From positions 1 through 32,853 of the forward strand of contig CACWTR010000029.1 of assembly GCA_902763865.1 (NCBI GenBank): 32,853 nucleotides of DNA, written 5' to 3'. Source of the stretch: an uncultured Bacteroidales bacterium. Its GTDB lineage: Bacteria; Bacteroidota; Bacteroidia; Bacteroidales; Bacteroidaceae. Shown here piece after piece: positions 8,039 to 32,853 of this stretch (within the stretch, counting starts at the first letter, position 1; each line of letters opens with the position of its first letter). The notes under the pieces were generated by a model that saw only the letters and a program-made list of their open reading frames with translations, made no database searches and was not told where the DNA came from. Both the position numbers and the translations under genes were made by a program.

Positions 8039-11000
8039 ATGAAAAAAAGATTACTTCCAATGCTCCTGCTTTTCCTGACGGGAATCGTGGGACACAGCGT
8101 GACGGCAAAGGCACAGACGCCTGAGCCGAACCAAGTGGTGGAGATTGCCACGGCGGAAGACCTCCACTCCTTCGCCACGATGGTCGAGAACGGCATGGCC
8201 GTAGATGGCGTGCTGACAGCCGACATCAACCTTGCCTCCAGCGACTACCCCGACCTGATGATAGGCAAGGACGGCAGCCCCTTCACCGGCACCTTCGACG
8301 GACAGGGCCACACCATCGCCTACAGCTATGACTTCACTGCCAACTACTGCGGCCTCTTCAGCTTCGTCCGCGATGCCACCATCCGCAACCTCCGCGTCGA
8401 AGGCGATGTCGTCACCCGTGGCATCCACTACGGTGCCCTCATCGGATATGGCGACGGCACGATGCTCGTGGAGAACGTCGTAACCGATGTCCACATCACG
8501 GGCGAGCGCAGCGGCGTAACAGGCAATGGCGGCATGATAGGTGCACTCTACGGCAACATCACCTTCAACAACTGCGCCACCCTGGGCGAGATGGGCAATC
8601 CCGGCAGCTCCATGTACTGCGGCTTCGTGGCCTTCGCCACCGGCGGTGTAACCTCCACCCTGAACAACTGCTTCACCGCCTGCCGCCTGACCGAAGGCAC
8701 AGGTACCGACTACTGCTTCACCTTCTGCCGCGGCACATACGTTGCCAACAACTGCTACTACCTGGAACCGATAGGCGACGTGCAGGGCAAGCCCATTACC
8801 GAAGAGCAGATAGCCAACGGTTCGCTCTGTTACAAACTCAATGGCGACCAGAGCACCATCAGCTGGACACAAACCATTGGCACCGACCTCACCCCGCAGC
8901 CCGGCACGGGAAGCCTGAGGGTATATGCCACCGGCACGCTTCGCTGCGATGGCACAGAGTTGGAGGACAACCCGCTCGACTATAGCAACACCGAGGGCTA
9001 TCCCGTCATCCCCGACCATCAGTTCGGCAGCGACGGCACGTGCACCGTCTGCGGCACACCCGACCCTGATGCCGTCAAGCAGAACGCCGACGGCTATTAC
9101 CTGATAGGCAGCGCCAAGCAGCTGAACTGGGTAGTACTGAGGATGGAACAGGGAGAAAAGAATGTGAAGGTGCTTCTCACGGACGACATCGACCTCAGCG
9201 AAAGCGACTACCCCGACCTGATGATAGGCACGGAGAGCCGTCCCTTCACGGGCATCTTCGACGGAGCAGGCCACACCATTACATACATCTACCAGAACGT
9301 CAACGCAAAGTGGCGCGGCCTCTTTGCCTTTGCCAAGGACGCCACCATCTGCAACCTGCGTGTCGAGGGCAGTGCCTACGTCACCCAGATTCACTACGGT
9401 GCCCTCATCGGACGCGCCAACGGAACGGTGCTCGTGGAGAACGTCGTGACGAATGTCGATATCACCGGAGCCATGAATCAGGTGACGGGCGATGCTGGCA
9501 TGGTGGGAGCCAACTACGCTGACATGACCTTCAACAACTGCGCTACGCTCGGCGAGATGGGCTTTGCCGAGAATGGCCTGCAGAGTTCTATGTACAGCAG
9601 CTTCTCCGGATGGTCGGACGGCAACAGCAAGACAACCCTGAACAACTGCTTCACCGCCTGCCGCCTGACCGAAGGCACCGGCACCGGCAACTGCTTCACC
9701 ATGACCCACAGCAGCGGTACCGTCACCCTGAACAACTGCTATTACCTCTATGAAGTAGGCAGGGTGCAGGGCACTGCCTACGACGAGGAAGAGCTGGCGA
9801 GCGGAGCACTCTGCTACAAGCTCAATGGCGACCAGAGCCAGATTGGTTGGTATCAGGACCTTGCCAACGATGAGATGCCTGTGCCCGACGCTTCGCACCC
9901 GAGAGTCTTCGGCGCAGGTGAAACCTACATGAACATCACCGACGATGCAAGCTTCCGCGCCTTCGTTGACCTTGTCATCGGCGAGGAGAAGGAGCGCTAT
10001 GCAGAGACTATTGCACAGAAGAGCCTCATCGAGACTTACCTGGAAGAGCTCGACAAGCTGGGCGAGACCTCCGACATCGATGCCTTCCTGACTGCCTACA
10101 ACGCCCTGGCAGGTCAGCGCGAGAGCATCCGGACCTGTGCCGAAGCCTATGCCGCATACATCGCAAAGGTCGAGGAAACGAAAAAGTACCTTGAGGACAA
10201 CCCCTTGGACAATGCCAAGGCAGAGCTCCTGAAGGCTTACCTCACCGAACTTGAAGAGCCCAGCGAGGACTATCCCAACGGTTCGGCTGAATACATCCTC
10301 GAAAACCTCGAGCTTAGCGAGGAGGAAATCATTGCCGAGACAAAACTGGTTGCCGATAAGCTGGTGGAGGCTATCACCAACAGCCCGACCGTAGGCACTG
10401 AGGTGACGATGCTCTTCACCAATGCTGACCTGAAGGACAAGTTCAACGGATGGGAGGGACAGCTGCCTACAGGCTGGGGCACCTCGGAAACCAGCCCGTT
10501 GTATGTCGGCGAGTGTCTTGCCGCAAAGATGGACATGCATCAGACGCTGACGGGACTCCCCAACGGCCTCTATGAGCTTCAGGTTCATGGTGCCTTCCGC
10601 CCGACACCCTACGACAACTTCTACAACGTCAATTATGCCGCCACGCTCTATGCCAACGACGTGCACAACTATTTCCAGGCCAACATCGAGGACATGATCA
10701 GCCCTGAGGATGCCATCGACGGAGTGAACTGCAACATCACAGGCCCCGTTGCCGACTTTGCCGTGACCGACGAGTATGGCGAGCTGGCCGGCTACACGTT
10801 GCAGGGCATCGTGGGCTGCAGCAATGCGTTCCAGGCCGGACGCTACTTCAACAGCGTCCTCTGCGAAGTGACCGACGGCACGCTGACCATCGGCATTCGT
10901 CAGCCCGGCACGGGTCTCTCCCGCGACTGGCTCGGCTTCGGAGACATCAAGGTGTTCTACTGCGGACAGATGAACGATGCAGCCGAGAGCCTCGACCGCG

Positions 11001-12409
11001 TGCTGGCCTCGCAGTCGGACCGCGCCTACACCATCCTCAACGTCTATGAATTCGACTTCATGGACGAGTATGCTGCCTATCCCAACTTCAGCCAAGCCCT
11101 GAAAGACGAGCTGCAGCAGACACTCGATGCCGTAGCCACTGCTTCCGAGCCCGAGGCCAAGTTCCAGCTCATCGAGAAGTTCTCCAGCCTCTTCCTGCAA
11201 ATCTACGAGAGCAAGCAGGCATACATCACCCTGATGGACAAGGCCGAAGAAGTGAACGGACTGGAGAACGCTTTCATGGACATCCTTACCGAAGAGGAAA
11301 TCACTCAGATGGAGGACCTCTACGAACTGCTCATCAACAGCTACATGGACGGCACGTTATCTACCGAGGAGGCACTTGCCATCGACGTCAGCAAGGTCAT
11401 CAACTTCCTGCCCGAGCAGGCCGACGGCTACTATCTGCTCCGCACTCCCAAGGACCTCTTTGTCTTTGGCGGCCTGGTTGCTGCCGGTTCGACGGGCATC
11501 AACGGCAAGCTCCTTGCCGACATTGACCTGCGCGAGACGGAGTTCAACAACCTCATGATAGGCAACGATGCAGAACAGTATTCCGGCATCTTCGACGGTC
11601 AGGGCCACACCATCACCTACAGCTATGACTGCGAGGACAACTACTGCGGCCTCTTCAGCTACGCGAATAGCTGCACCATCCGCAACCTGTGTGTCGAGGG
11701 CGATGTCGTCACCCGCGGCATCCACTTCGGTGCGCTGCTAGGCTACGCCCGCGGCACCCTGCTCGTTGAGAATGTCGTGACCAACGTCAACATCGTTGGC
11801 GAGCACAGCGGCGTGACGGGCAACGGCGGCATGGTAGGCCGGTTGGAAGGTCCCATTACGTTCAACAACTGTGCCACTCTGGGCTCTATGGGCTACGAGG
11901 GCAGCTCCATGTACTGTAGCTTCGTAGCTTACGCGGGCAACGGTTCGTCCACCCTGAACAACTGCTACACCGTCAGCAGCCTGACCGAAGGCACCGGCAC
12001 CGACTATTGCTACACCTTCTGCCGCGGCACAGCTCAGTTCAACAACTGCTACTACCTCAATGCCGTCGGTACGGCCCAGGGCAAGCAGATGACCCTCGAG
12101 CAGTTCCAGAACGGCGAGGTCTGCTATAAGCTGAACCAAGGGTCGGCATCCGAAGGGGAAGCCAACGGCTCGCAGGACATCATCAATTGGTATCAGAACA
12201 TCGGCGAGGACGCCTTCCCCGTTCTCGACCCGACTCACCAGATTGTCACCTTCGATGACGGCAAGTACGGCAACCCCGACGGCATAGCCGACATCATGGC
12301 CGACAGCCGCCAGCAGTCAACGGGAATCTTTAACCTTGCCGGACAGCGCATGACGAGAATGCAGAAGGGCATCAACATCGTTAACGGCAGAAAAATCATC
12401 GTCAAGTAA
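8039..12409 (+). CDS. Large secreted protein with three GLUG-type beta-helix modules
   Basis: A 1456-residue secreted protein of unknown function. A signal peptide ends near VTAKAQ. Modules at about 36-290, 347-620 and 1122-1400 are alike. Each has an IDL...FTGxFDGxGHTI...GLF...ATIxNLxVEG pattern, as in GLUG-motif beta-helix proteins, then repeated FNNCATLG, TLNNCFTACRLTEGTG and NNCYYL lines, and ends with a CYKLN/WYQ segment. Between modules 2 and 3 come a helical stretch (about 640-785), a galactose-binding-like beta-sandwich (about 787-978: GLYELQVHGAFRPTPYDNF) and another helical stretch (980-1110). Residues 1427-1456 (GIFNLAGQRMTRMQKGINIV...) form a tail shared with two other proteins in the window. 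Modules 1 and 3 are similar even at the DNA level, suggesting internal duplication. It is probably cell-surface or extracellular, perhaps carbohydrate-binding or adhesive. Its stop overlaps the next start by 1 bp. Confidence 0.85.
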   Translation: MKKRLLPMLLLFLTGIVGHSVTAKAQTPEPNQVVEIATAEDLHSFATMVENGMAVDGVLTADINLASSDYPDLMIGKDGSPFTGTFDGQGHTIAYSYDFTANYCGLFSFVRDATIRNLRVEGDVVTRGIHYGALIGYGDGTMLVENVVTDVHITGERSGVTGNGGMIGALYGNITFNNCATLGEMGNPGSSMYCGFVAFATGGVTSTLNNCFTACRLTEGTGTDYCFTFCRGTYVANNCYYLEPIGDVQGKPITEEQIANGSLCYKLNGDQSTISWTQTIGTDLTPQPGTGSLRVYATGTLRCDGTELEDNPLDYSNTEGYPVIPDHQFGSDGTCTVCGTPDPDAVKQNADGYYLIGSAKQLNWVVLRMEQGEKNVKVLLTDDIDLSESDYPDLMIGTESRPFTGIFDGAGHTITYIYQNVNAKWRGLFAFAKDATICNLRVEGSAYVTQIHYGALIGRANGTVLVENVVTNVDITGAMNQVTGDAGMVGANYADMTFNNCATLGEMGFAENGLQSSMYSSFSGWSDGNSKTTLNNCFTACRLTEGTGTGNCFTMTHSSGTVTLNNCYYLYEVGRVQGTAYDEEELASGALCYKLNGDQSQIGWYQDLANDEMPVPDASHPRVFGAGETYMNITDDASFRAFVDLVIGEEKERYAETIAQKSLIETYLEELDKLGETSDIDAFLTAYNALAGQRESIRTCAEAYAAYIAKVEETKKYLEDNPLDNAKAELLKAYLTELEEPSEDYPNGSAEYILENLELSEEEIIAETKLVADKLVEAITNSPTVGTEVTMLFTNADLKDKFNGWEGQLPTGWGTSETSPLYVGECLAAKMDMHQTLTGLPNGLYELQVHGAFRPTPYDNFYNVNYAATLYANDVHNYFQANIEDMISPEDAIDGVNCNITGPVADFAVTDEYGELAGYTLQGIVGCSNAFQAGRYFNSVLCEVTDGTLTIGIRQPGTGLSRDWLGFGDIKVFYCGQMNDAAESLDRVLASQSDRAYTILNVYEFDFMDEYAAYPNFSQALKDELQQTLDAVATASEPEAKFQLIEKFSSLFLQIYESKQAYITLMDKAEEVNGLENAFMDILTEEEITQMEDLYELLINSYMDGTLSTEEALAIDVSKVINFLPEQADGYYLLRTPKDLFVFGGLVAAGSTGINGKLLADIDLRETEFNNLMIGNDAEQYSGIFDGQGHTITYSYDCEDNYCGLFSYANSCTIRNLCVEGDVVTRGIHFGALLGYARGTLLVENVVTNVNIVGEHSGVTGNGGMVGRLEGPITFNNCATLGSMGYEGSSMYCSFVAYAGNGSSTLNNCYTVSSLTEGTGTDYCYTFCRGTAQFNNCYYLNAVGTAQGKQMTLEQFQNGEVCYKLNQGSASEGEANGSQDIINWYQNIGEDAFPVLDPTHQIVTFDDGKYGNPDGIADIMADSRQQSTGIFNLAGQRMTRMQKGINIVNGRKIIVK

Positions 12410-20419: not shown

Positions 20420-23400
20420 ATGAATCAGAAAGTTCTTTACTCTGTGATGGGCCTTGCCGCCATGCCAATGGTACAGACGGTTGCCCAAAATCAAAACTGG
20501 ACTGGAACTACAATGACAGTTGCCGGTAGCCAGGCAGTTACAGATGCTGCTACTGCTGAGCCTTTGAGCTTCAACATTGGTAAGTTGGCTCCGGGCTATT
20601 ACAACCTCGCATTGCAGGTTACGTCGAAGGTTTACGATGTTACCGTTGCAGTCTCCGGCGCAAAAGGCACCCCCAATCAGGTATGCAATCCTGGTTCTAC
20701 AGCTCAGGATGTGAACGTTGCATTCCAGGTGGAAGATGCAACGAAAGACATCGTCATTTCCTTGGCAAGCTCTGATCCCGGTGTGTCAGGCTCCGGATAC
20801 TCTATTACCGCTCCTACTACGGTAAGCCTCGCCTTCAACTTTGCTACTATCAAGAGCACATTGGCTACCAATGCCCAGACTCTTGCTAACACCATCAGCG
20901 GCTACAACTATGCAGCCAAGGAGGATGATGTGAAGGCTGCCAATGCCCTGAAGACAAAGGCAGACAACGTACAGTCAAGCTATGATGACTATAAGAAGTA
21001 CAAGCTCTATGCTGAGAAATCTACTATTCAGGAAGAAATCGATGCACTGGCTGACAAAGCTGCCAAGGCAGAGGCTGCCTACCAGAACGAGCAGGCTTAC
21101 AACCGCGTAAACGCCGCAATCACGGCAATCAAGGCTAAGTACAACGCTGCCGTTGCAGAATTGGAGGTGAAACTCGTAGGTGCTGCCGCTTATCTGCTTG
21201 GCAAAGCCAAGGCTGACCTGAACGATTACATCAACCTGGAGATTACGGAGGCCACTTCTGCCAGCTATGCTTCCTATCAGGCCGGCACCGCTGTTGCTGA
21301 CGAGAAAACGAATACCGATAAGATTCCTACAGAAGCTGATCTCAACACCATTGTCAAAAACTATACGGATCAGGCAACAGACAATATCGGTCACTATGAT
21401 GCTCTGCACAAAAAGGTAACTGATCTGCAGGCCGACCTCGACAATGTTAAGCCTGCATCCGGCGACATCGCTGCCCTGTTCCCCAAGACAGAGGCCCAAG
21501 TCGCTATTGATGCCATCAACACAAAGGTAGAGAATGCCTACAACTCTGCCGCCCAGCTGTCGCTCGATGTTGATAAAGAAGCAGGCGAGGCGCAAACAAA
21601 GATCAACGAACTGGCAGATAAGGTTAACCAGGCCAATGCCGAGTACAATGCCAATGCTGCAACCACCACTGCCATTGCTGGTGTCCAGAAGAAGTTGGAC
21701 GATGCCAAGGCAGCTGTCAATGCCAAGGTTTCAACGGATGGCAAATACAAGGCTCAGGACTACTATACTGACTATGTTAAGGGTATTCAGGACAAGATTA
21801 CGAAGCTCACTACCGATGCTGCTGCCGTCTATAAGGTGGATGGCACAGGTTCGGCTCAGACTTACAACTCAGAGCTGGCTGCCAAGATTACGGCTATCGA
21901 GGGTGAGATTACTCCCTACCAGACCAATGCCGTTGCTGCAGTTGCAAAGTACGATGAGCTGGTTGCCGCTATGGCAAGCTACCAGAAGGACCTCGATGAA
22001 GTTCGCGGTCTGGTGGAAAATCTTGCTATCTATGAAGACGAGGAAGGAGTCTATGACTACAAGACGAAGCTTGACCTCCTGCAAAAGCGCATCAACGCCA
22101 TTAATAAGGCTATCAAAGAGGCCCAGGAGAAAGTTGGTGCCGATCACTGGACAGCGATGCTTGGTATCAATAAGGATGCTGCTATTACTGATGCCATTAA
22201 GGCACTGAAGGATAACTACAAGGTTGATCAGAACACCTACGATAAGGATTATCTGGATGGTAGCCTGAAAACCCTCAGCACAAGTATCAACAGCTTCGAC
22301 GCTACAGATGCAACACTCGGTGCAGACCATCAGGCCTTTGCCGATGCAGAAGCTGCCATCAGTGCTAAGGTGACAGCCGCACAGGGTGCAAGGGAAGCCA
22401 TCGACCCCGCCGATGAAAAGGCTCCGGAAAAGATTGCTGAACTGACTGCAACGGTTAACAGCATCAAGGCAGAGCAGGCTGCTCTCGAGGCCGCTGCCGC
22501 TGCCGTTGCAGCCAAAGTTGCGGCCAATAACCAAGCAAAGGGCAACCTTGCTACAAGCATCGGCGGCTTGAAGGAAAAGATTAAGTCGTTTGAGGACACT
22601 TATAAGATTGGTAAGGACAACTCCACCCTTGGCAACCGCGGTAAGGCTGAAGGCAGCATCACCAAGGAAGTCGGTGAGATTAAGACCGAACTCGAGACTT
22701 TGGAAAAAGCAAACAATGATGTTGTAACTACCGTTGTGAAAGAAGTCGAGAAGACTGTTGCCACCAGCGGACTCGCCAACGGCCTGTACGAAGTTAAAGT
22801 AGAGGTTGAAGCCGCAGCTGCCGGCACTGTCTCTGTCAACTACTCCAAAAAGGATTACGATGCAGGCAAAACCACGGTCACGCTGGAGAGCGTATTCGTT
22901 TCTGACGGCACACTGACGGCTGCCGTAAGCGGCAAGGACGACAAGGTGACAATCAAGAAGCTCACCTACCACGAGAACTCCCTGGATGCAACCTACAACA
23001 ATGCAGACGAGAAGAACCCTGGCTACAACAACACCTATTCTGCCTTGAACGCACAGGAGAATGCTCTTGAAACAGCCGCTCCCGGCATCAAGACTGCTGT
23101 TGAGAACAATGCTGCGACCTACACAGCTGCCACCAATGACGTTAAAGCCCTGCAGACAACTGAGCTCAACACTCTGAAAAACCTGAAGAATGTCACCAAC
23201 GCCGAGGCCGTGAGCGACGACGCTACAGCAAAGAAGGATGATCCTGCTAACTTCAAGGTATTTGAGACTGACCTTGACGCCGGCAAGACCTACACAGCTA
23301 AAAAGGCTGCCATCGACGCTGACATCAATGCCCTGCAGACCGCTCTCGATGCATCCAACGCAGCAGAGACTATGGTCGAAAAGTGGCAGAACAAGAGCAT

Positions 23401-26400
23401 CACCGTCGGTGAAGGCGACAATGCCAAGACCTATTCCATCTCAGCTATCACTGCTGCCATCAATAACCTCAAGGCAGAGGCCGAGAAAGAAAGCAACAAC
23501 TACGAGGCATACGCTGCCCTTCAGAGCGAAAACATGTCTAAGCTCAGGCCCGATACTATCTTTACGAAGAAGGATGGCGAGCACCTTGTGGACATGACTG
23601 AAGCTGAGATTAAAGAGATTATAGGCGGAGGTGCTTATGATCACTACATCGAACTGCAAAATGGCTATAAGGCAGGCAAGAATGATATTCTGAAAGCTAT
23701 GAAGCAGAGCCTTAGCGCTCGTACGGCTGTCAGCACCAAGAGTGGCTTCGTGAGTCAGATTGCAGCACTCATCGAAAAGGTGAAGGTTGTCAAGAGCGAT
23801 GGTATAGCTAACAAGAAGAAGTATGACGAACAGGTTGCTGCCTACACTGAGACTCAAACCCTTTGGAACAGCACCTACACCGAGATTGCTGCAACCGACC
23901 ATAGCTCCAAGGTACAGGAATGGCTCGACCAGCTCGACGCTATCCAGGTTGACCTTACCGCAGCTACCGAGGCTGTAGAGGCTAACTACAAGAAAGGTAA
24001 GTCTGTGGCTGAGGCTAAGGACTTCGCCTCAATCAAGGCTCGCATCAACGACGTGAAAGCCCAGCAGAAGGAAGGTTACGACGCTCAGATTGCCGCCGAC
24101 AACAAGGCCGCACACGAGTCCTTCATGGGTACAGAGACTACGAAGGGAGCCATCGGACTGGCTAACGAGGCATATCTGAATGCCGTGAAGGAACGTGCCA
24201 CATACAGTACGACCAACGCCGATATCGAAAAAGAAGTCACGGAGGCTGCTGCTGCACTGGATGTTATCCTCTACAATTGCCCGACAGAAATCGAGAAATT
24301 GAAGAACGATGAGAACGCAGCTTACGCAGCTGTCACCAGTCCTACCACATTCGACGTTAGCGAATACAACGAAGCTGCAACTGCAATCCAAAAGAGGATT
24401 ACAGATGCTCTCGCTCAGTTCAAGGTGAATGTGAAGGCTGCCCTCAATAAATTCTGGGAAAAAAGGACCTTAGGCGACTCAGGCTATAGTGCCAAGCTTT
24501 CTGCTGCAGAATCAGCTATTGAAGACTACAAGGACGAGGCTAAGACTGATGCATTCAAGGATGTACAGAATCTGATAGCTCAAGGTACTGCTGGTGTGAC
24601 TAACCTGAAGCTCTCGGATATTGAGGCTGCTGTTGCCGGTCTGGAGAATATCGATAACATGCTCGCTGCAGACAAGAACGTAGCCGCAGTGAAGGATATC
24701 GATATCCGCCTTGCAGAAGCCGAACAGAAGTACAACGACGTGAAGGCCTACATCGACGGTGTAAATATTACAGATGATTACGCCGGCATCAAGGCAAGCA
24801 ACAAGGAGGATCTGGAGCGGTCTTACTCCAATAACATCACCCGAGGCGCTAAGAGGTTGACTAAGAACTTCAGTAACCGCGACGATATCAAGTGGTTTGT
24901 TGATCAGTTCATTGGGACGGCTACCACTTGTGAGAATAAGGTCAAGGCAGCCGTAGAGAACGATGTCAAGAACACTGAGGCATACGAAGAGATGCTTGCT
25001 GCTTGGAATGAGGTAGCTAAGGTGCTGGAAGATGCAATAGATGCTGCTGCTGCTTACAAGTATGATGCTTCGTTTGCAACGCTCGAGCAGAGGCTTGAGG
25101 ACATCAAGGAAGCGATGGATGATGCCAAGGAATGGGGCTATGCTGTCGATTATCAGACCAATGACTTCGACGTTGATGCACTCACAGCTGATATCAATAC
25201 TGCATTGGAAACTGCCTTTAATACTGAAAAGACCAGTCTTGCAGCGGATATCGCAGAACTGAAGAACCAGTACAATGCATACGTTGCCGCTAATGGTCTC
25301 GATGAAGCAGCAGGTCAGTTCAAGGCAGCAATCGATGAACTCGAAAAACAGCTCAAAGACATAGATATCGTGGACCTTGACGACCCCGCCGACGACATCG
25401 ACTTCGACGACAGGGTTGCTGCTACCGAGGCTCTGATTGAGTTGCAGTACGCTATTGCCAATCTGGAGACTGAGTTGCTCGCGGCTAATGGAAATACTGC
25501 CAATGCCGAAGCACTCGCAGACTTCAACGGCCAGCTTCAGGAGCTTGAAGCCACAGCTTCGCTCGAAGGCATCGACCCGTGGGTAGGTGAGCAGAGCGTT
25601 AAGGGCAAGAAGATTTCCGACTGGATTGCTGAGATCTCAGCTCAGATAGTAGAGCTCAAGAGTGACATTGAGGCTGAACCGAACCTCTCGTTCTACAAGA
25701 AGCAGTACCAGGCTCAAATTGATGCCATTGCGGAAGTCCTCACGCCTGTTGCTTCAGCCATCGCGGATAGGCAGGCTCAGGTAGTAGCCAACAATGCAGC
25801 TTATGCAAGTCTTACCGGAGAACTCGAAAGATTGCAGGGCTTGGTTGATGCAGCCAAGGCAAAGGTTAGTGAGTACGAGCATTTCAATTTACCCTACCCC
25901 AACATCACCTACAACTATAATGACCTGCTTGAGCAGTACAACTATAAACATGTCCTCACTGGTGGTATCCAACTGGATATTAACAATGCAAAGAATGCAG
26001 TGGAAAATGCTAACAGGTACAAGGAAGCTCAGAACTACAACCTGACAATTACGTCAAATGTTGAGAATACGGTAAAGAACTATCTTGATAACTCTGCTAA
26101 CGCTGAGCTCAATTGTCAAATTAATGATCTGAACATTGATCTCGCCGATGCCATCGATATTGCCAATCATGAGGGTAAGGATAAGTATTCCAGCGTGCTT
26201 TGGGCAAGGTTGATTGCTATAAAGGATGCAATCGATACAAGAATCAACAAACTGCAGGAGGATGTTGATTATTCCAACGGGCATGAATACTGGAACGGTA
26301 ACAGTTGGGTTTATGGCTGCTTCAGCGATGCCGACTATGCAGGTCACATGGAGACCGTTGGAAGCATCAAGGAAGATATCGATACCCTCGATGATTCGGT

Positions 26401-27208
26401 TTACAACCTCCAGTTGCTTGGCGACGCTAACGAGGATGGCCGCGTGAATGTGCTTGACTACCAGAATGTGCTCAACATGATTCTCGCACCGGAAAAGCAG
26501 CCGAGTAGTGATGTTGATGAATCGATAGTCGCCAAGTACCAGACAGACGAGGAACTCTTCAGGAACATCGACATCAACAAGAACGAGGTTATCGAAGTGG
26601 GCGACCTGACGGCTATCGTCAACTACATCCTGACCCAGACTTGGAAGGACGGCTATGCTGCAGCCAAGAGCTTCGGCGCTGCCAACGAGAGCGTGACGAT
26701 GGACATCACTCCGATGCAGCAGAATGTGCGCCGCTATGCCATCAGCCTGCAGAACACCGAGGACTACACCGCCTTCCAGCTCGACGTAGTGCTGCCCGAG
26801 GGCATGAAGATTGTGGGCCAGAGCCTCAGCGACCGTGCCGGCCAGAGCCACAAGCTCTACAGCCGCGCCCAGCAGGACGGCAGCATCCGTCTGCTCGCAT
26901 CGTCCATCAAGGGCGAGAGCTTCAGCGGCAGCGAAGGCGCAGTGCTCTACATCGACGTGGAGACCACGAGCGACTTCAAGGGCGGCAGTGTTGAGATGAT
27001 GAACATCCTCTTCTCCGACGTCTATGCCCAGACCCGCGCCTTTGCTATCGGCAACGGCGGCGAGGCTACTGGCATCGACATCACGGCTGCCATGCAGACG
27101 CTCAAGCAGAAGGTTTATGACCTCGGCGGTCGCATGATGAACGGCCTCAAGAAGGGCGTGAACATCATCCAGGGTGCCGACGGTCAGACCAAGAAGGTTG
27201 TGAAGTAA
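20420..27208 (+). CDS. Giant secreted helical protein with dockerin-like and cohesin-like C-terminal modules
   Basis: A 2262-residue secreted protein of unknown function. A signal peptide (MNQKVLYSVMGLAAMPMVQTVAQ) is followed by a small beta domain (25-140; a similar short segment, ANGLYEVKVEV, recurs at about 790-860). Next come roughly 1800 residues of Ala/Lys/Glu/Asp-rich helical sequence, probably extended coiled coil or helical bundles. The C-terminus carries a dockerin-like pair (LGDANEDGRVNVLDYQNVLN from about 2000 and IDINKNEVIEVGDLTAIVNY from about 2048; the second calcium loop is degenerate), a cohesin-like sandwich (about 2090-2205: FQLDVVLPEGMKIVG...) and the tail VYDLGGRMMNGLKKGVNII from 2232. 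Base composition is more A/T-rich than its neighbours except at the 3' end, where the shared modules begin, suggesting the parts have different origins. A role as stalk or scaffold is inferred. Confidence 0.8.
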   Translation: MNQKVLYSVMGLAAMPMVQTVAQNQNWTGTTMTVAGSQAVTDAATAEPLSFNIGKLAPGYYNLALQVTSKVYDVTVAVSGAKGTPNQVCNPGSTAQDVNVAFQVEDATKDIVISLASSDPGVSGSGYSITAPTTVSLAFNFATIKSTLATNAQTLANTISGYNYAAKEDDVKAANALKTKADNVQSSYDDYKKYKLYAEKSTIQEEIDALADKAAKAEAAYQNEQAYNRVNAAITAIKAKYNAAVAELEVKLVGAAAYLLGKAKADLNDYINLEITEATSASYASYQAGTAVADEKTNTDKIPTEADLNTIVKNYTDQATDNIGHYDALHKKVTDLQADLDNVKPASGDIAALFPKTEAQVAIDAINTKVENAYNSAAQLSLDVDKEAGEAQTKINELADKVNQANAEYNANAATTTAIAGVQKKLDDAKAAVNAKVSTDGKYKAQDYYTDYVKGIQDKITKLTTDAAAVYKVDGTGSAQTYNSELAAKITAIEGEITPYQTNAVAAVAKYDELVAAMASYQKDLDEVRGLVENLAIYEDEEGVYDYKTKLDLLQKRINAINKAIKEAQEKVGADHWTAMLGINKDAAITDAIKALKDNYKVDQNTYDKDYLDGSLKTLSTSINSFDATDATLGADHQAFADAEAAISAKVTAAQGAREAIDPADEKAPEKIAELTATVNSIKAEQAALEAAAAAVAAKVAANNQAKGNLATSIGGLKEKIKSFEDTYKIGKDNSTLGNRGKAEGSITKEVGEIKTELETLEKANNDVVTTVVKEVEKTVATSGLANGLYEVKVEVEAAAAGTVSVNYSKKDYDAGKTTVTLESVFVSDGTLTAAVSGKDDKVTIKKLTYHENSLDATYNNADEKNPGYNNTYSALNAQENALETAAPGIKTAVENNAATYTAATNDVKALQTTELNTLKNLKNVTNAEAVSDDATAKKDDPANFKVFETDLDAGKTYTAKKAAIDADINALQTALDASNAAETMVEKWQNKSITVGEGDNAKTYSISAITAAINNLKAEAEKESNNYEAYAALQSENMSKLRPDTIFTKKDGEHLVDMTEAEIKEIIGGGAYDHYIELQNGYKAGKNDILKAMKQSLSARTAVSTKSGFVSQIAALIEKVKVVKSDGIANKKKYDEQVAAYTETQTLWNSTYTEIAATDHSSKVQEWLDQLDAIQVDLTAATEAVEANYKKGKSVAEAKDFASIKARINDVKAQQKEGYDAQIAADNKAAHESFMGTETTKGAIGLANEAYLNAVKERATYSTTNADIEKEVTEAAAALDVILYNCPTEIEKLKNDENAAYAAVTSPTTFDVSEYNEAATAIQKRITDALAQFKVNVKAALNKFWEKRTLGDSGYSAKLSAAESAIEDYKDEAKTDAFKDVQNLIAQGTAGVTNLKLSDIEAAVAGLENIDNMLAADKNVAAVKDIDIRLAEAEQKYNDVKAYIDGVNITDDYAGIKASNKEDLERSYSNNITRGAKRLTKNFSNRDDIKWFVDQFIGTATTCENKVKAAVENDVKNTEAYEEMLAAWNEVAKVLEDAIDAAAAYKYDASFATLEQRLEDIKEAMDDAKEWGYAVDYQTNDFDVDALTADINTALETAFNTEKTSLAADIAELKNQYNAYVAANGLDEAAGQFKAAIDELEKQLKDIDIVDLDDPADDIDFDDRVAATEALIELQYAIANLETELLAANGNTANAEALADFNGQLQELEATASLEGIDPWVGEQSVKGKKISDWIAEISAQIVELKSDIEAEPNLSFYKKQYQAQIDAIAEVLTPVASAIADRQAQVVANNAAYASLTGELERLQGLVDAAKAKVSEYEHFNLPYPNITYNYNDLLEQYNYKHVLTGGIQLDINNAKNAVENANRYKEAQNYNLTITSNVENTVKNYLDNSANAELNCQINDLNIDLADAIDIANHEGKDKYSSVLWARLIAIKDAIDTRINKLQEDVDYSNGHEYWNGNSWVYGCFSDADYAGHMETVGSIKEDIDTLDDSVYNLQLLGDANEDGRVNVLDYQNVLNMILAPEKQPSSDVDESIVAKYQTDEELFRNIDINKNEVIEVGDLTAIVNYILTQTWKDGYAAAKSFGAANESVTMDITPMQQNVRRYAISLQNTEDYTAFQLDVVLPEGMKIVGQSLSDRAGQSHKLYSRAQQDGSIRLLASSIKGESFSGSEGAVLYIDVETTSDFKGGSVEMMNILFSDVYAQTRAFAIGNGGEATGIDITAAMQTLKQKVYDLGGRMMNGLKKGVNIIQGADGQTKKVVK

Positions 27209-27219
27209 ATCTCTCAATC

Positions 27220-27271
27220 AGGCGGGTGGCAGTGCTCCGTGCCACGCACAGGGAACTGCTGCCACCTGCCT
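27220..27271 (+). terminator. Hairpin after giant protein gene
   Basis: Arms AGGCGGGTGGCAG (27220-27232) and CTGCCACCTGCCT (27259-27271) pair with one G-U wobble. No T-run follows. It could be a weak terminator or an mRNA-stabilising end between two co-oriented genes 110 bp apart. Confidence 0.45.
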
Positions 27272-27318
27272 TCCCCAATTAAACCTAAACAACAAAGAAA
27301 TACTTAACTGTTTCTATT

Positions 27319-29676
27319 ATGATTAGTATTACGAATATAAGCAAACAGATGATGCGAAGCTGTCTGCTGTTGTTGGTGCTCCTGACACAGGCACTGACTT
27401 CATCCGCTCAGGTGGAACTCTCACTCGAGGATTTCACAATAGCAAGCAGCGAGACAAAGGAGCTTTCCCTCATCCTCTCTAACGACCAACCGGCCACAGC
27501 CCTGCAGGTGACCATTGACCTTCCGAACGGGCTAAAATACGTAAAGGACTCTGCCAAGAAGACCGATCGCGTCAAGGGACGCGGAGCTGTCGTACAGTCT
27601 TCCGAGAAAACCGGCAAGCTGGTGATTGTGGAGACCGACGGCACCATTGCTGCCGGCACGGGAGCCGTCATCACCTTCAAGGTGGAGGCCGGCGATGACC
27701 TGACCGAAGGCAACTATGGTGTGGAACTCACTGACATCATCATCTCGAGCGCAGAAGGCACTCAGCTGAATCAGGAGGAATCTTATACAGCTACGGCAAA
27801 GTTCCTTGGACTGGACTGCAAGTTCAGTGCTGCCGAGAGCCTCGAAGTGTCCGTCGAACAGGAGTACCAGGTGGATGTCACGATGACCAATAAACAGGAC
27901 ATTACCGCCTTCCAGGGAACACTGACACTGCCCGAGGGACTGGAAATTGTCGTGCCTGATGAGGAAGAACCCGGTGAACTGTTCATCTACTCCGATCGTA
28001 TCCCCAAGACGAACAATTTCAAGTTCCAGCAGAACGAAGGAGTCATCAACTTCGTGTTGAGCTCCACAATGAACTCTAAGCTTGTCGGGAATGACGGTGT
28101 CGTCTTCTCCTTCAAGGTGAAAGCTACTGATGCTTTAGCTGAGGAGTCTAAGATTACACTTACTAATATTTATGCCGCCACGACGAATGGCAAGTCCCAG
28201 CTGTGTGACCCCGTCACCATCTCTGTCACCAACACTTCTGTTGCAGACAAGGCTGCCTTCGATGAGTACAAGGCCGAGCAGACTGCTGCAGTCGAGGCTC
28301 TTGCCGAGGAAGGCGACAGCGAAGAGGCTCAGGCCATCATCGCCGCTGCAGTCGAGGCCATCAATGCTCTCAACTTCGACTATGCCCTGACGCTCGACGA
28401 GAACAAGGCTGCCGTTGACGAACTGGTAGCTCCCGTGGCCGAGGCTCTGCAGGCACAGCGCGCTGCCGAGCAGCTTGCCGCTGACAAGGCTGCCTTCGAC
28501 GAGTTCAAGGCCGAGCAGATTGCCGCTGTCGAGGCTCTTGCCGCAGAAGGCGACAGCGAGGCATCGCAGCAGATTATTGCCGAGGCCGTAGCTGCCATCG
28601 AAGCTCTGGAATATGACGAAGCCAAGACGCTCGAAGAGAACAAGGCTGCCGTTGCAGAAGTGGTAGCTCCCGTAGAGGAAGCTCTGGAGGCACAGCGCAC
28701 AGCCGATGCTGCTGCAGCTGCCGAGCAGCTTGCTGCTGACAAGGCTGCCTTCGATACGTATAAGGCCGAGCAGACTGCTGCAGTCGAGGCTCTTGCCGAG
28801 GAAGGCGACAGCGAGGCATCGCAGCAGATTATTGCCAATGCCGTAGCAGCCATCGAAGCTCTGGAATACGACGAGGAAAAGACGCTCGACGAGAACAAGG
28901 CTGCCGTTGACGCAGCAGTCGCTCCCGTAGCTGAGGCTCTGGCCGAACAGCGTGCTGCCGACGAAGCCGCTGCAAAGGCTGCTGCCAACGAAGCTGCCTA
29001 CACGACCCTGAAGGCTCAGTACGACGAGTTGCGTGCTGCCTTGAGGCAGGCCAAGAACACCATCAAGAGCGACTATGCAGACGTAGCAGCGCAGTTTGAC
29101 GATGCCATTGCCGACATCGAGGATATGCTGAGCGACGCCATCGCCAAGCTGGAAGGCGAGTATGCAGCCGGAAAGCTGACAGCCGAGAGCCAGCTGCAGA
29201 ACGGCGAAACCATCGCAGCCGGCATCGAGAAGCTGCTTGCCGACGTTGCTGCCGCACAGCTTGCAGCTGACAAGGCTGCCTTCGATACGTACAAGTCTGA
29301 GCAGACTGCTGCAGTCGAGGCTCTTGCCGAGGAAGGCGACAGCGAGGCATCGCAGCAGATCATTGCCGAGGCCGTAGCTGCCATCGAAGCTCTCGAATAC
29401 GACGAAGCCCTGACGCTCGACGAGAACAAGGCTGCCGTTGACGCAGTAGTAGCTCCCGTGGCTGACGCCCTGGCCGAGCAGCGTGCTGCCGATGCCATCA
29501 TCCCCGGTGACACCAACGGCGACGGCGAGGTCAACACAGTCGATGCTTCCTACATCCTGATGTACCTCGTGGGCAACGTGCCTGCCGACTTCGTGGAGGC
29601 AGCTGCAGACGTGGATGGCAACGGCAGAATCGACACCCTCGATGCTACAGCTATCCTGAAGAAACTCGTAGAATAA
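27319..29676 (+). CDS. Secreted cohesin-like / helical-repeat / dockerin protein
   Basis: A 785-residue secreted protein. A signal peptide ends near ALTSSAQ; Met11 (27349) is an alternative start. Two cohesin-like beta-sandwiches follow (about 31-163 and 167-305; each has a ...FQGTLTLPEGLEIV-type strand and a late VVFSFKVKA/VITFKVEA strand). Four copies of a ~80-residue helical repeat start ADKAAFDxYKxEQ at 309, 388, 473 and 650; a different helical insert lies at about 562-648. The end (727-785) is a canonical type I dockerin pair, GDTNGDGEVNTVDASYIL and ADVDGNGRIDTLDATAIL, with complete calcium-loop Asp/Asn positions. It lacks the C-terminal tail seen in its neighbours. With cohesin-like and dockerin modules in one chain it could polymerise or link other proteins at the surface. 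The modules are identified by eye, and no partner is known. Confidence 0.83.
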   Translation: MISITNISKQMMRSCLLLLVLLTQALTSSAQVELSLEDFTIASSETKELSLILSNDQPATALQVTIDLPNGLKYVKDSAKKTDRVKGRGAVVQSSEKTGKLVIVETDGTIAAGTGAVITFKVEAGDDLTEGNYGVELTDIIISSAEGTQLNQEESYTATAKFLGLDCKFSAAESLEVSVEQEYQVDVTMTNKQDITAFQGTLTLPEGLEIVVPDEEEPGELFIYSDRIPKTNNFKFQQNEGVINFVLSSTMNSKLVGNDGVVFSFKVKATDALAEESKITLTNIYAATTNGKSQLCDPVTISVTNTSVADKAAFDEYKAEQTAAVEALAEEGDSEEAQAIIAAAVEAINALNFDYALTLDENKAAVDELVAPVAEALQAQRAAEQLAADKAAFDEFKAEQIAAVEALAAEGDSEASQQIIAEAVAAIEALEYDEAKTLEENKAAVAEVVAPVEEALEAQRTADAAAAAEQLAADKAAFDTYKAEQTAAVEALAEEGDSEASQQIIANAVAAIEALEYDEEKTLDENKAAVDAAVAPVAEALAEQRAADEAAAKAAANEAAYTTLKAQYDELRAALRQAKNTIKSDYADVAAQFDDAIADIEDMLSDAIAKLEGEYAAGKLTAESQLQNGETIAAGIEKLLADVAAAQLAADKAAFDTYKSEQTAAVEALAEEGDSEASQQIIAEAVAAIEALEYDEALTLDENKAAVDAVVAPVADALAEQRAADAIIPGDTNGDGEVNTVDASYILMYLVGNVPADFVEAAADVDGNGRIDTLDATAILKKLVE
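28243..29500 (+). repeat. Intragenic ~240-255 bp repeats (four copies)
   Basis: Copies start at 28243, 28480, 28735 and 29266, each with GACAAGGCTGCCTTCGA and later GAGGCTCTTGCCG(A/C). Copies 3 and 4 are nearly identical over about 100 bp. Recombination between copies could change the protein's length without breaking the frame. Confidence 0.8.
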
Positions 29677-29701
29677 ACACATACATAAAAATAATTCATT
29701 C

Positions 29702-29888
29702 AAGTTTCGGGAGTTAAAGAAGCTAAAGAAGTTAAAGAAGTTAAAGGACGATACCACTGGGATGTGGTGAACTTTCAGCCTGGAATCGGACTGCAAAACT
29801 ATTGTCCTTTAACTTTCCCAAAGCGAGCACAGCGAGCTAACTCCATTAACTTCTTTAACTTCCCTCAAAAGCACAACAACCGAAACTT
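29702..29888. mobile_element. MITE-like inverted-repeat element, copy 2
   Basis: Bounded by AAGTTTCGG (29702-29710) and CCGAAACTT (29880-29888), which are perfect inverted repeats. Just inside are GAGTTAAAGAAG and CTTTAACTTCC. It is clearly similar to copy 1 (19983-20151) and 18 bp longer through extra AAGAAGTTA units. It ends 21 bp before the next ATG, so it supplies most of that gene's upstream region. Confidence 0.7.
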
Positions 29889-29909
29889 AAATAATTAAGA
29901 TAAGAAGAT

Positions 29910-31058
29910 ATGAAAAAGTTATTTCTTAGTTTGTCTGTGCTCTTCGGCCTAAGCGGAGCATCAATGGCACAGACAGTCTCTGTCTCCGACATAGAGGCAT
30001 TGCCCGGCGAAACGGTGACAGCAACTATCAACCTCGCTGTACCTGCAGACTCCTACACGGGTTTCCAGATGACAGTGCAGTTCCCCGCAGAGGGCTTCTC
30101 GATGGCAGCCACCGGCGCTGCTTCCGGCTGGAACGGGTCCCTGGAGTACGGTGCTATGGAAGCAGGTAAGGTGAAATTCGCCGCTGCTGCCAGCAAGACG
30201 TTTGAAACAGCTGCTATCGCCGTGGAGTTCACCGTCGGCGAGGGCGTGGCACTTGGCGAGTATCCTGTCGCTGTAGATGTCACCTTCGAGGGCGCTGAAG
30301 GCAAGGCTGATGCCGCTGCCGAGTTCGCAGTTGACGTAGTGAACCGCCACGTCGTCATCCTCGACGAGAACGGCACAGAGGCACCTGCTAACGCTGCCAA
30401 CGTGGATGTAGTCCTGAACCGCACCATCAATGCTGATGAGTGGAGCACCATCTGTCTGCCCTTCGCCGCTACCGGCGAGCAGCTGAAGGCCGCATTCGGC
30501 AACGACGTGCAGCTGGCTGCCTTCACCGCATGGGAGAGCGAGGAAGACGAAGAGGGTGCCATCACTGCCATCAAGGTCAACTTCTCCACCACCGGTGCAG
30601 CAGAAGGCATCGAGGCCAACAAGCCCATGCTTATCAAGGTGAGCGCTCCCGTTGAGACTGCTACCTTCGAGGCTGTCAACATCGAGACAGAGGCAGAGCC
30701 CGTAGTGCAGGTAGGCAAGAAGTCGGCTGAGCGCGGCTACTTCTACGGCACCTATACCGTATCGGAGGTGCCCGAGGAGAACCTGTTCCTCAGCGGCGGC
30801 GACTTCTGGTACTCCACCGGTGCCACAGCCATCATGGGCTATCGCGGCTACTTCGAGTTCAAGGATGTCCTGGAGGCATACTACAGCGAAGGTGCCGAGG
30901 TGAAGGTCAGCCTCTTCATCGACGACGAGGCAACCGGCATCAAGAGCATCTCTGACTCTTCCTTAAAGGCAGAGGAAATCTATAATCTCGCCGGCCAGCG
31001 CGTGGGCAGCCTGAAGAAGGGCATTAACATCGTGAACGGCAAGAAAGTATTGTATTAA
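29910..31058 (+). CDS. Secreted protein with cohesin-like domain and C-terminal tail
   Basis: A 382-residue secreted protein of unknown function. A signal peptide ends at GASMAQ. A cohesin-like sandwich (about 22-147) has the pattern PGETVTATINLAV...TGFQMTVQFPAEGF...IAVEFTVGEG. A second domain (about 165-345) opens with TINADEWSTICLPFAATGEQ, a start seen in many Bacteroidales extracellular proteins. The tail IYNLAGQRVGSLKKGINIVN (from about 357) matches the tails of the GLUG protein and the giant protein. It contains no dockerin. It lies downstream of repeat-element copy 2 and 18 bp upstream of a 58-residue gene with which it is probably co-transcribed. It may be a partner for dockerin-bearing proteins next door; this is inferred from neighbourhood and fold pattern. 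Confidence 0.82.
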   Translation: MKKLFLSLSVLFGLSGASMAQTVSVSDIEALPGETVTATINLAVPADSYTGFQMTVQFPAEGFSMAATGAASGWNGSLEYGAMEAGKVKFAAAASKTFETAAIAVEFTVGEGVALGEYPVAVDVTFEGAEGKADAAAEFAVDVVNRHVVILDENGTEAPANAANVDVVLNRTINADEWSTICLPFAATGEQLKAAFGNDVQLAAFTAWESEEDEEGAITAIKVNFSTTGAAEGIEANKPMLIKVSAPVETATFEAVNIETEAEPVVQVGKKSAERGYFYGTYTVSEVPEENLFLSGGDFWYSTGATAIMGYRGYFEFKDVLEAYYSEGAEVKVSLFIDDEATGIKSISDSSLKAEEIYNLAGQRVGSLKKGINIVNGKKVLY

Positions 31059-31076
31059 CTAACATAAGATATCGTT

Positions 31077-31253
31077 ATGAAGAGAACATATATCTGTCCT
31101 GCCGTAAGCATCGAGGGTGCTACGGTGGAAACGAACATCCTTGCTGCCAGTGGTGTGAAGAGCGAGGACCTCGGCATTGGTTTCGGCGGTGTGGATGCCG
31201 GCGGCGACCAGACTCCGGGCGCAAAAGCCTGGGACAACATGTGGGAGGAATAA
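31077..31253 (+). CDS. Small 58-residue protein of a Bacteroidales-type family
   Basis: An ATG 18 bp after the previous stop opens a 58-codon frame. It begins MKRTYICPAVSIEGATVETN, continues ILAASGVKSEDLGIGFGGVD and ends GAKAWDNMWEE. It resembles small Bacteroides/Prevotella proteins that start MKKTYINP and end in a Trp/acidic motif, a family with no known function that I recall only by pattern. It has no signal peptide. The Gly-rich centre after a conserved leader-like first half is reminiscent of a precursor peptide, but no modification enzyme is nearby. A strong terminator follows 63 bp later, which supports a real transcript end. Confidence 0.7.
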   Translation: MKRTYICPAVSIEGATVETNILAASGVKSEDLGIGFGGVDAGGDQTPGAKAWDNMWEE

Positions 31254-32774: not shown

Positions 32775-32853
32775 GACACGTCGTGTTGATTGCTTCATCG
32801 CGATGAAGCAATTGCTTGATCGCGATGAAGCAATCACTCCATCGCGATGAAGC
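32775..32853. repeat. 22-bp periodic array C with 24-bp palindrome (runs off window)
   Basis: Units start at 32775, 32797, 32819 and 32841, exactly 22 bp apart. The first carries ACACGTCGTGT, an 11-bp palindrome; the others carry ATCGCGATGAAGC. Positions 32789-32812 form a perfect 24-bp palindrome centred on CGCG. The array continues beyond the right edge. Confidence 0.8.

Follow-up and report, generated by a model that had tools for sequence, protein, structure and literature searches.

A putative non-cellulosomal cohesin-dockerin scaffold cassette with type IX secretion-like tails in a Prevotella-like Bacteroidales genome

Results

We analyzed the first 32,853 of the 37,106 bases of contig CACWTR010000029.1 (hereafter the window), which belongs to the assembly of an uncultured, Prevotella-like Bacteroidales bacterium (GCA_902763865.1; 2.9 Mb, 75 contigs, 84% complete). 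Three neighboring genes in the window, P0003, P0001, and P0002, form a cassette that encodes cohesin and dockerin modules (Table 1). An earlier reading made from the letters alone (the sequence-only reading) had placed three open reading frames (ORFs) here, and all three proved open on translation at the positions it gave. The N-terminus of P0003 looks signal-like by eye; P0003 and P0002 end in tails resembling those of the type IX secretion system (T9SS), and P0001 ends in a dockerin.

Table 1. Features of the cassette, with positions in the window (iE, independent E-value)
Feature	Position	Strand	Basis
P0003, cassette gene 1, X-dockerin-cohesin-tail, 2262 amino acids	20420..27208	+	translation, domain profiles, gene order
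P0003 long low-proline, mostly helical-looking region, residues ~151-1985	20870..26374	+	composition
P0003 divergent dockerin, residues ~1998-2072	26411..26635	+	PF00404; helices in AlphaFold2 model
P0003 cohesin, residues 2088-2220	26681..27079	+	hold-out iE 2.5e-24; AlphaFold2 model and Foldseek
P0003 C-terminal T9SS-like tail, residues 2229-2262	27104..27205	+	tail profile, alignment; weak family matches
P0001, cassette gene 2, two cohesins in tandem, helical spacer, dockerin at the C-terminus, tailless	27319..29676	+	domain searches, AlphaFold2
P0001 cohesin 1, residues 31-161	27409..27801	+	hold-out iE 2.3e-23
P0001 cohesin 2, residues 169-307	27823..28239	+	PF00963 1.5e-5; hold-out iE 8.4e-22
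P0001 helical repeats, residues 308-725	28240..29493	+	AlphaFold2 secondary structure
P0001 canonical dockerin, residues 727-784	29497..29670	+	PF00404 39.3 bits, 7.7e-10; PDB cellulosomal dockerins matched
P0002, cassette gene 3, cohesin, ~200-amino acid linker module, T9SS-like tail	29910..31058	+	domain and tail profiles
P0002 cohesin, residues 20-147, weakest of the four	29967..30350	+	hold-out iE 1.3e-8
P0002 C-terminal T9SS-like tail, residues 353-382	30966..31055	+	tail profile, alignment
Small ORF, 58 amino acids, 18 bases past gene 3	31077..31253	+	related ORFs at the equivalent spot in other cassettes

About four cohesin-like sandwiches had been proposed across the three proteins, and profile searches establish four cohesin modules. 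The tandem P0001 cohesins, used as the query against 61 genomes, had a match in 17; the regions around these matches and around the dockerins of this genome yielded 67 domains, of which 55 were aligned after removal of near duplicates. A hold-out profile made from 51 of the alignment rows, excluding the four from the window, found all four modules and reported none of 900 shuffled controls (300 per window protein) below iE 1. Searched against PDB chains, the family profile gave 34 matches at E ≤ 1, of which 30, including the best 26, were cohesins as counted by molecule name, title, or recall (top match, 3e-9). Pfam alone is equivocal here, as only one of the four window modules passes the PF00963 cut-off: P0001 cohesin 2 scores 25.6 bits when scanned alone (cut-off, 24.1) and was the sole place above the cut-off in the genome search, P0001 and P0002 scanned whole score 19.3 and 16.1 bits, both under the cut-off, and PF00963 matched nothing in whole P0003 at E ≤ 1. 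The P0003 C-terminus was modelled with AlphaFold2 at a mean predicted local distance difference test score (pLDDT) of 82.8, and cohesin entries made up 45 of the 50 Foldseek matches listed for its module, the best among those having a TMt of 0.72 to 5nrk_A. The P0001 model reached TMt values of 0.70-0.76 to single cohesins; 10 of the 50 matches listed were cohesins, two of which ranked first and second, and the remainder were mostly integrins and AgI/II-type tandem sandwiches. That the window sandwiches are cohesins is thus supported by sequence profile and, for the one well-modelled module (P0003), by fold. An unrelated immunoglobulin (Ig)-like family, the alternative that the sequence-only reading had raised against itself, was rejected, since the PDB profile matches, the P0003 Foldseek search, and the hold-out profile all point to cohesins.

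Both dockerin-like pairs seen earlier, one of them called canonical, were recovered with PF00404, as a canonical dockerin in P0001 and a divergent one in P0003. The two calcium-binding loop-helix repeats of the type I (PF00404) dockerin are present in P0001; the P0003 dockerin scored 19.6 bits in a scan of the whole protein, under the cut-off of 22.9, and 36.4 bits together with its neighbors in frame in the genome search. Residues 306-725 of P0001 are predicted by AlphaFold2 to be helical (block pLDDT, 61-91). The helical stalk of about 1800 residues ascribed to P0003 may be present in part: the stretch is low in proline (18 prolines in 1835 residues), it has a coil-type SMC match (28 bits, far under the cut-off of 729), and by eye it contains a beta-like insert around residues 790-880.

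Among known families, the type of tail found on P0003, P0002, and their relatives resembles T9SS sorting families best, but weakly; for the tail of P0002, NCBIfam and Pfam gave nothing at E ≤ 1. SprA, the T9SS part for which we searched, is present in the genome (SprA_N, 5.4e-215, in a 2606-amino acid frame). In G148, a genome of another family, Pfam Por_Secre_tail fell on three of the eight dockerin-gene products scanned; the two scanned from genome G039 had none. Upstream of the cassette, a 1456-amino acid protein (8039-12409, + strand) carries a tail like those of P0002 and P0003, with no cohesin or dockerin detected in it.

The division between tailed and dockerin-ended proteins extends beyond the window. 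We surveyed 156 proteins with distinct ends, keeping near-identical pairs; five of them run off their locus. Complete proteins with a cohesin and no dockerin end almost without exception in a tail or tail-like sequence (36 of 37; 31 by profile, 1 by pattern, and 4 by eye), the remaining one ending at its cohesin. Proteins with both modules divide evenly: the dockerin forms the end of 38 of the 76, and the other 38 have a tail there (30 by profile) or a sequence judged tail-like by eye (8, with L081 doubtful). When only dockerins are present, 18 of 28 proteins end in the dockerin, 6 in a tail, and 4 otherwise.

The sequence-only reading had suggested that such an arrangement would be unusual, but it is not singular: relatives share the gene order, and this genome has it a second time. 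Our survey comprised 30 whole-genome regions, 38 loci from named genomes, and the window, with four duplicates or near duplicates skipped. First genes were defined by an internal dockerin followed by a tail-like end or a cohesin, second genes by a cohesin and a terminal dockerin, and third genes by a cohesin and a tail-like end with no dockerin, so that the recurrent order reads [X-dockerin-(cohesin)-tail], [cohesin(s)-dockerin], [cohesin-tail]. In loci that were chosen by a cohesin or dockerin match and are in some cases mutually related, 44 adjacent pairs were forward, 6 reversed, and 17 of other kinds or repeats. First-to-second adjacency was found 17 times (reversed, 2), second-to-third 17 times (reversed, 1), and first-to-third 10 times (reversed, 3). 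The exact series of three occurred in 5 of 59 gene runs (the window, L021 in the same genome, L063, L068, and L106), with no cohesin detected behind the dockerin of the first gene in L021 and L068; a further 8 runs were first-second, 7 first-third, and 4 second-third. Many of the 59 runs are truncated at the end of a locus or contig. The titles of 37 of the 38 named loci give Prevotella, Prevotellaceae, Bacteroidaceae, or Bacteroidales, and that of the other gives Candidatus Tenebribacter.

Relatives on the scale of scaffoldins, with 8, 5, 10, and 7 cohesins in one protein, were found in two genomes of other families, and the dockerins of these genomes, G148 and G039, sit on C25, S8, and M14 peptidases among their cargo. 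Both genomes are from other Bacteroidales families; G148 (L166-L172) has 27 cohesins and 52 dockerins, and G039 (L059, L173-L178) has 24 and 38. On contig 85 of G148, dockerin genes stand immediately upstream of one for a protein with 10 or more cohesins.

This genome itself has 14 PF00404 matches and, by the new profile, 12 cohesins, only one of which was found by Pfam. Its second cassette, on contig 12 (L021), consists of a 2575-amino acid frame, a cohesin-dockerin protein, and a cohesin-tail protein; the first of these carries a C10 peptidase, leucine-rich repeats, a dockerin, and a tail, with no cohesin detected. The earlier claim that no catalytic domain is attached fits the scans of the three window proteins, but the first gene of the second cassette does have one. 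Scans of all three window proteins against the family libraries found no enzyme, the sole enzyme-named match over the E 0.001 level (NCBIfam CelK, in P0001) covering the dockerin alone, and no carbohydrate-binding module (CBM) family. Elsewhere in the genome, eight proteins on six contigs share, in at least one dockerin half, the face code IAVLNA; they include two C10 peptidases and a small cohesin-dockerin protein that adjoins a cohesin-tail protein. The code of the P0001 dockerin differs from it. Twelve proteins of the genome were scanned, 11 of them with a dockerin (L021 7760-10000 by its last 747 amino acids; L018 11690-18562 and L020 4223-7432 lay outside the scan), and contained C10 peptidase, CotH, leucine-rich repeat, Flg_new, and Ig-like modules and no glycoside hydrolase (GH). 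A cellulosome was rejected for this genome on the basis that the proteins scanned have no GH cargo and no CBM. This lack may not hold for the group, because the accessible part of one report describes Prevotella bins with dockerins on GH modules (PMC7480376).

At 14 of the 53 run ends that could be tested, the last gene is followed by a relative of the small ORF behind the cassette, a figure that is partly circular because the small-ORF profile was seeded from such ORFs. The count is 11 of 29 where the last gene is a third gene, compared with 0 of 67 for inner genes and 1 of 178 for control ORFs. A repeated gcgatgaagcaa-like unit is visible by eye at the end of the window (32790-32853).

Discussion

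The cassette probably encodes a non-cellulosomal cohesin-dockerin scaffold anchored at the cell surface through T9SS, with P0001 as the adaptor and the tailed P0002 and P0003 as anchors. In such a scaffold, the T9SS-type tails would lead to export and anchoring of P0003 and P0002, the P0001 dockerin would plug into the cohesin of a tailed protein (P0002 or P0003), and the P0001 cohesins would receive further dockerins, whether that of P0003 or those of cargo. The outcome would be a calcium-dependent, branched assembly that holds a very long protein at the surface and that may serve in adhesion or proteolysis. The identity of the modules, the order of the genes, the division of ends between tail and dockerin, SprA, and the further dockerin proteins of the genome are observed; the pairing of modules, the location at the surface, the need for calcium, and the role are inferred. 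Relatives on the scale of scaffoldins also favor this reading.

The C10 peptidases bear on how proteins without a tail would reach the surface. Of 41 rows, 6 were dropped (five antisense or shadow frames, as judged, and the first piece of a stop-interrupted frame). Two of the rest, the C10 peptidases on contig 7 of this genome, which were added on purpose, end in a dockerin. Of the 33 other complete C10 frames, two of them also from this genome, 31 ended in a tail or tail-like sequence (26 by profile, 3 by pattern, and 2 by eye); one more carries a dockerin close to the C-terminus, and the last was left unassigned. Many C10 frames of ~1,570-1,660 amino acids occur among those listed for genus genomes, and the two traced to the C-terminus, at L153 and L160, carry a tail of the cassette type. 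If tailless dockerin proteins simply stayed in the periplasm, the system would organize periplasmic rather than surface proteins, and a Sec signal would indeed be expected to lead only that far when no T9SS tail is present; a fusion lacking the tail serves as the control in the accessible part of PMC10994853. We consider this very unlikely, as the neighbors of the tailless proteins carry T9SS-like tails and the dockerins of the two contig 7 peptidases stand where 31 of the 33 other C10 frames have a tail or tail-like sequence.

The same replacement could be taken further, with the dockerin acting as an export ticket in trans: a tailless protein would bind a tailed cohesin protein in the periplasm, and both would cross the outer membrane together. 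T9SS is described as moving folded proteins in the accessible part of PMC9251779, and 56 complete proteins in our survey (38 with and 18 without a cohesin) are tailless and end in a dockerin. This idea is nonetheless unlikely in our view, because the other 38 proteins with both modules combine dockerin and tail (30 by profile, 8 by eye) and because in G148 a Pfam sorting domain occurs on dockerin proteins, including a C25 peptidase. Among the papers listed in a literature search, judged by titles and the starts of abstracts, none concerned T9SS co-export of this kind.

Binding between proteins is the other premise of a T9SS-anchored scaffold. In 57 non-redundant dockerins (from 83 usable of 110 matches in relatives and this genome), the two halves agree beyond shuffled halves at positions 10, 11, 14, 17, 18, and 21 (z 4.8-8.4), several of which we take to contact the cohesin in type I dockerins, and calcium positions 1, 3, 5, and 12 show no such excess. 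Agreement at these six positions would be as expected of a two-way binding face. The modules also co-occur: of 101 genus genomes, 79 have both, 0 have a cohesin alone by the new profile, 11 have a dockerin alone, and 11 have neither (Fisher p 4.4e-9). The modules could instead be purely structural, the dockerin packing on its neighbor in cis and stiffening a calcium-stabilized rod with no binding between proteins: cohesin and dockerin abut without a linker in many proteins (e.g., L062 5381-6997, with residues 120-264 followed directly by 265-322), and no trans interface was predicted in our analysis. A rod of this kind does not account for the agreement of both halves at the face positions, for multi-cohesin proteins without a dockerin beside dockerin proteins without a cohesin, or for one face code common to eight proteins on six contigs, and we regard it as quite unlikely. 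Alternatively, P0001 might polymerize with itself, its dockerin entering the cohesin of the next copy to form a fiber for which P0002 and P0003 would be only the base. P0001 and other second genes do combine one or more cohesins with a terminal dockerin in a single chain, and its code is unlike that of the eight-protein group; however, no sequence evidence singles out self-binding, distance correlations are uninformative on the point, and we give the fiber little probability.

Several results weigh against a T9SS-anchored scaffold of interacting proteins. Matches of the tails to TIGR04183 (4 of 20 tails; best E, 0.0032) and PF18962 (3 of 20; best, 0.0084) are weak, with none listed above the cut-off, and hhalign against canonical-looking tails gave a probability of 31.6 over 15 columns. 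The presence of SprA discriminates little because it is found in 140 of 149 genomes of the order, including all 13 that have cohesins. The full-length P0001 model, with a predicted template modelling score of 0.38, gave no interface, its dockerin being poorly modelled (block pLDDT, 33-56). Half agreement is also in excess at positions 9, 13, 15, and 20 (z 4.8, 4.6, 4.7, and 3.5) and when the calcium positions are taken together (z 4.0), and it may in part reflect homogenization of the repeats; moreover, the sample excludes both window dockerins, because the second half of the P0001 dockerin is one residue short of the pattern and the P0003 match covers one half, and the halves agree at three of the six face positions in P0001 and, by eye, in P0003. 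The co-occurrence of the modules in genus genomes is partly automatic because many proteins carry both, and while 22 genomes lack a profile match, three of these (G007, G101, and G122) have a PF00963 match. Finally, six of eight dockerin-cohesin pairings gave distance correlations with r of 0.50-0.72 (p ≤ 0.0002), one further pairing (n = 6) gave r of 0.61 (p 0.059), and the eighth gave no number; we rejected co-evolution as evidence of partnership, since these correlations reflect shared descent and cannot separate binding from it. With regard to PF00963, it also matches ORFs of ~1250-1300 amino acids in genus genomes, often at model positions 1 to ~110; such places are absent among the new-profile matches listed, and the matches in G007, G101, and G122 are of that kind.

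Dockerins of rumen Bacteroidetes have been reported without a defined role in the accessible part of PMC7480376, and a report on a T9SS-linked rumen Bacteroidetes states, in the part available, that neither cohesins nor dockerins could be detected, in line with the genomes of other Bacteroidetes (PMC5831590). The new profile finds cohesins in 79 of 101 genus genomes, whereas 39 have a Pfam match above the cut-off; likely dockerin partners are thus present, mostly below standard detection. Among the papers listed in a literature search, judged by titles and the starts of abstracts and with most subscription papers outside it, none concerned a Bacteroidales cohesin cassette. If the modules bind, they would constitute a surface assembly system of Prevotella-like bacteria, for which the cargo identified to date in this genome is peptidase, CotH-like, and adhesin-like, and the identification of candidate cohesins makes the role of rumen Bacteroidetes dockerins directly testable.

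Cohesin-dockerin systems outside cellulosomes are already known, and similar proposals exist for Cloacimonadota and Planctomycetes. The cassette shares with clostridial and ruminococcal cellulosome scaffoldins its cohesin and dockerin modules and its logic of adaptor and anchor; it is unlike them in its T9SS-type ends and in having no GH among the scanned dockerin proteins of the genome and no CBM in P0001, P0002, or P0003. The non-cellulosomal cohesin of Clostridium perfringens NagJ (GH84C), which ranks among the closest solved structures by both profile and fold, differs in being fused to an enzyme in a Gram-positive organism that is not known to have a scaffold cassette. The single anchoring cohesin of Ruminococcus albus, as described in the available part of PMC6118326, suggests how few cohesins can serve several dockerin proteins, as they may for the IAVLNA group, although phylum and cargo are different. 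The Planctosome of Nemodlikiaceae, itself hypothetical and non-cellulosomal, likewise combines an anchor, a cohesin-dockerin adaptor, and peptidases, to judge from the accessible text, and differs in its anchoring by lamin-tail domains and in its phylum (PMC6461901). Candidatus Stygibacter (Cloacimonadota) offers a further parallel: the portion of PMC8542988 available describes a putative scaffoldin with a C-terminal surface-attachment domain, together with dockerin-bearing enzymes. Both systems have a cohesin scaffoldin whose C-terminal domain is credited to T9SS anchoring, by genome inference only in each case, and both have dockerin-bearing peptidases. The Stygibacter scaffoldin is, however, a single protein of 3,755 amino acids with CBMs, and some of its enzymes are GHs, whereas here adaptor and anchors are encoded by separate genes in a recurrent order, and scans of the three cassette proteins revealed neither CBM nor GH.

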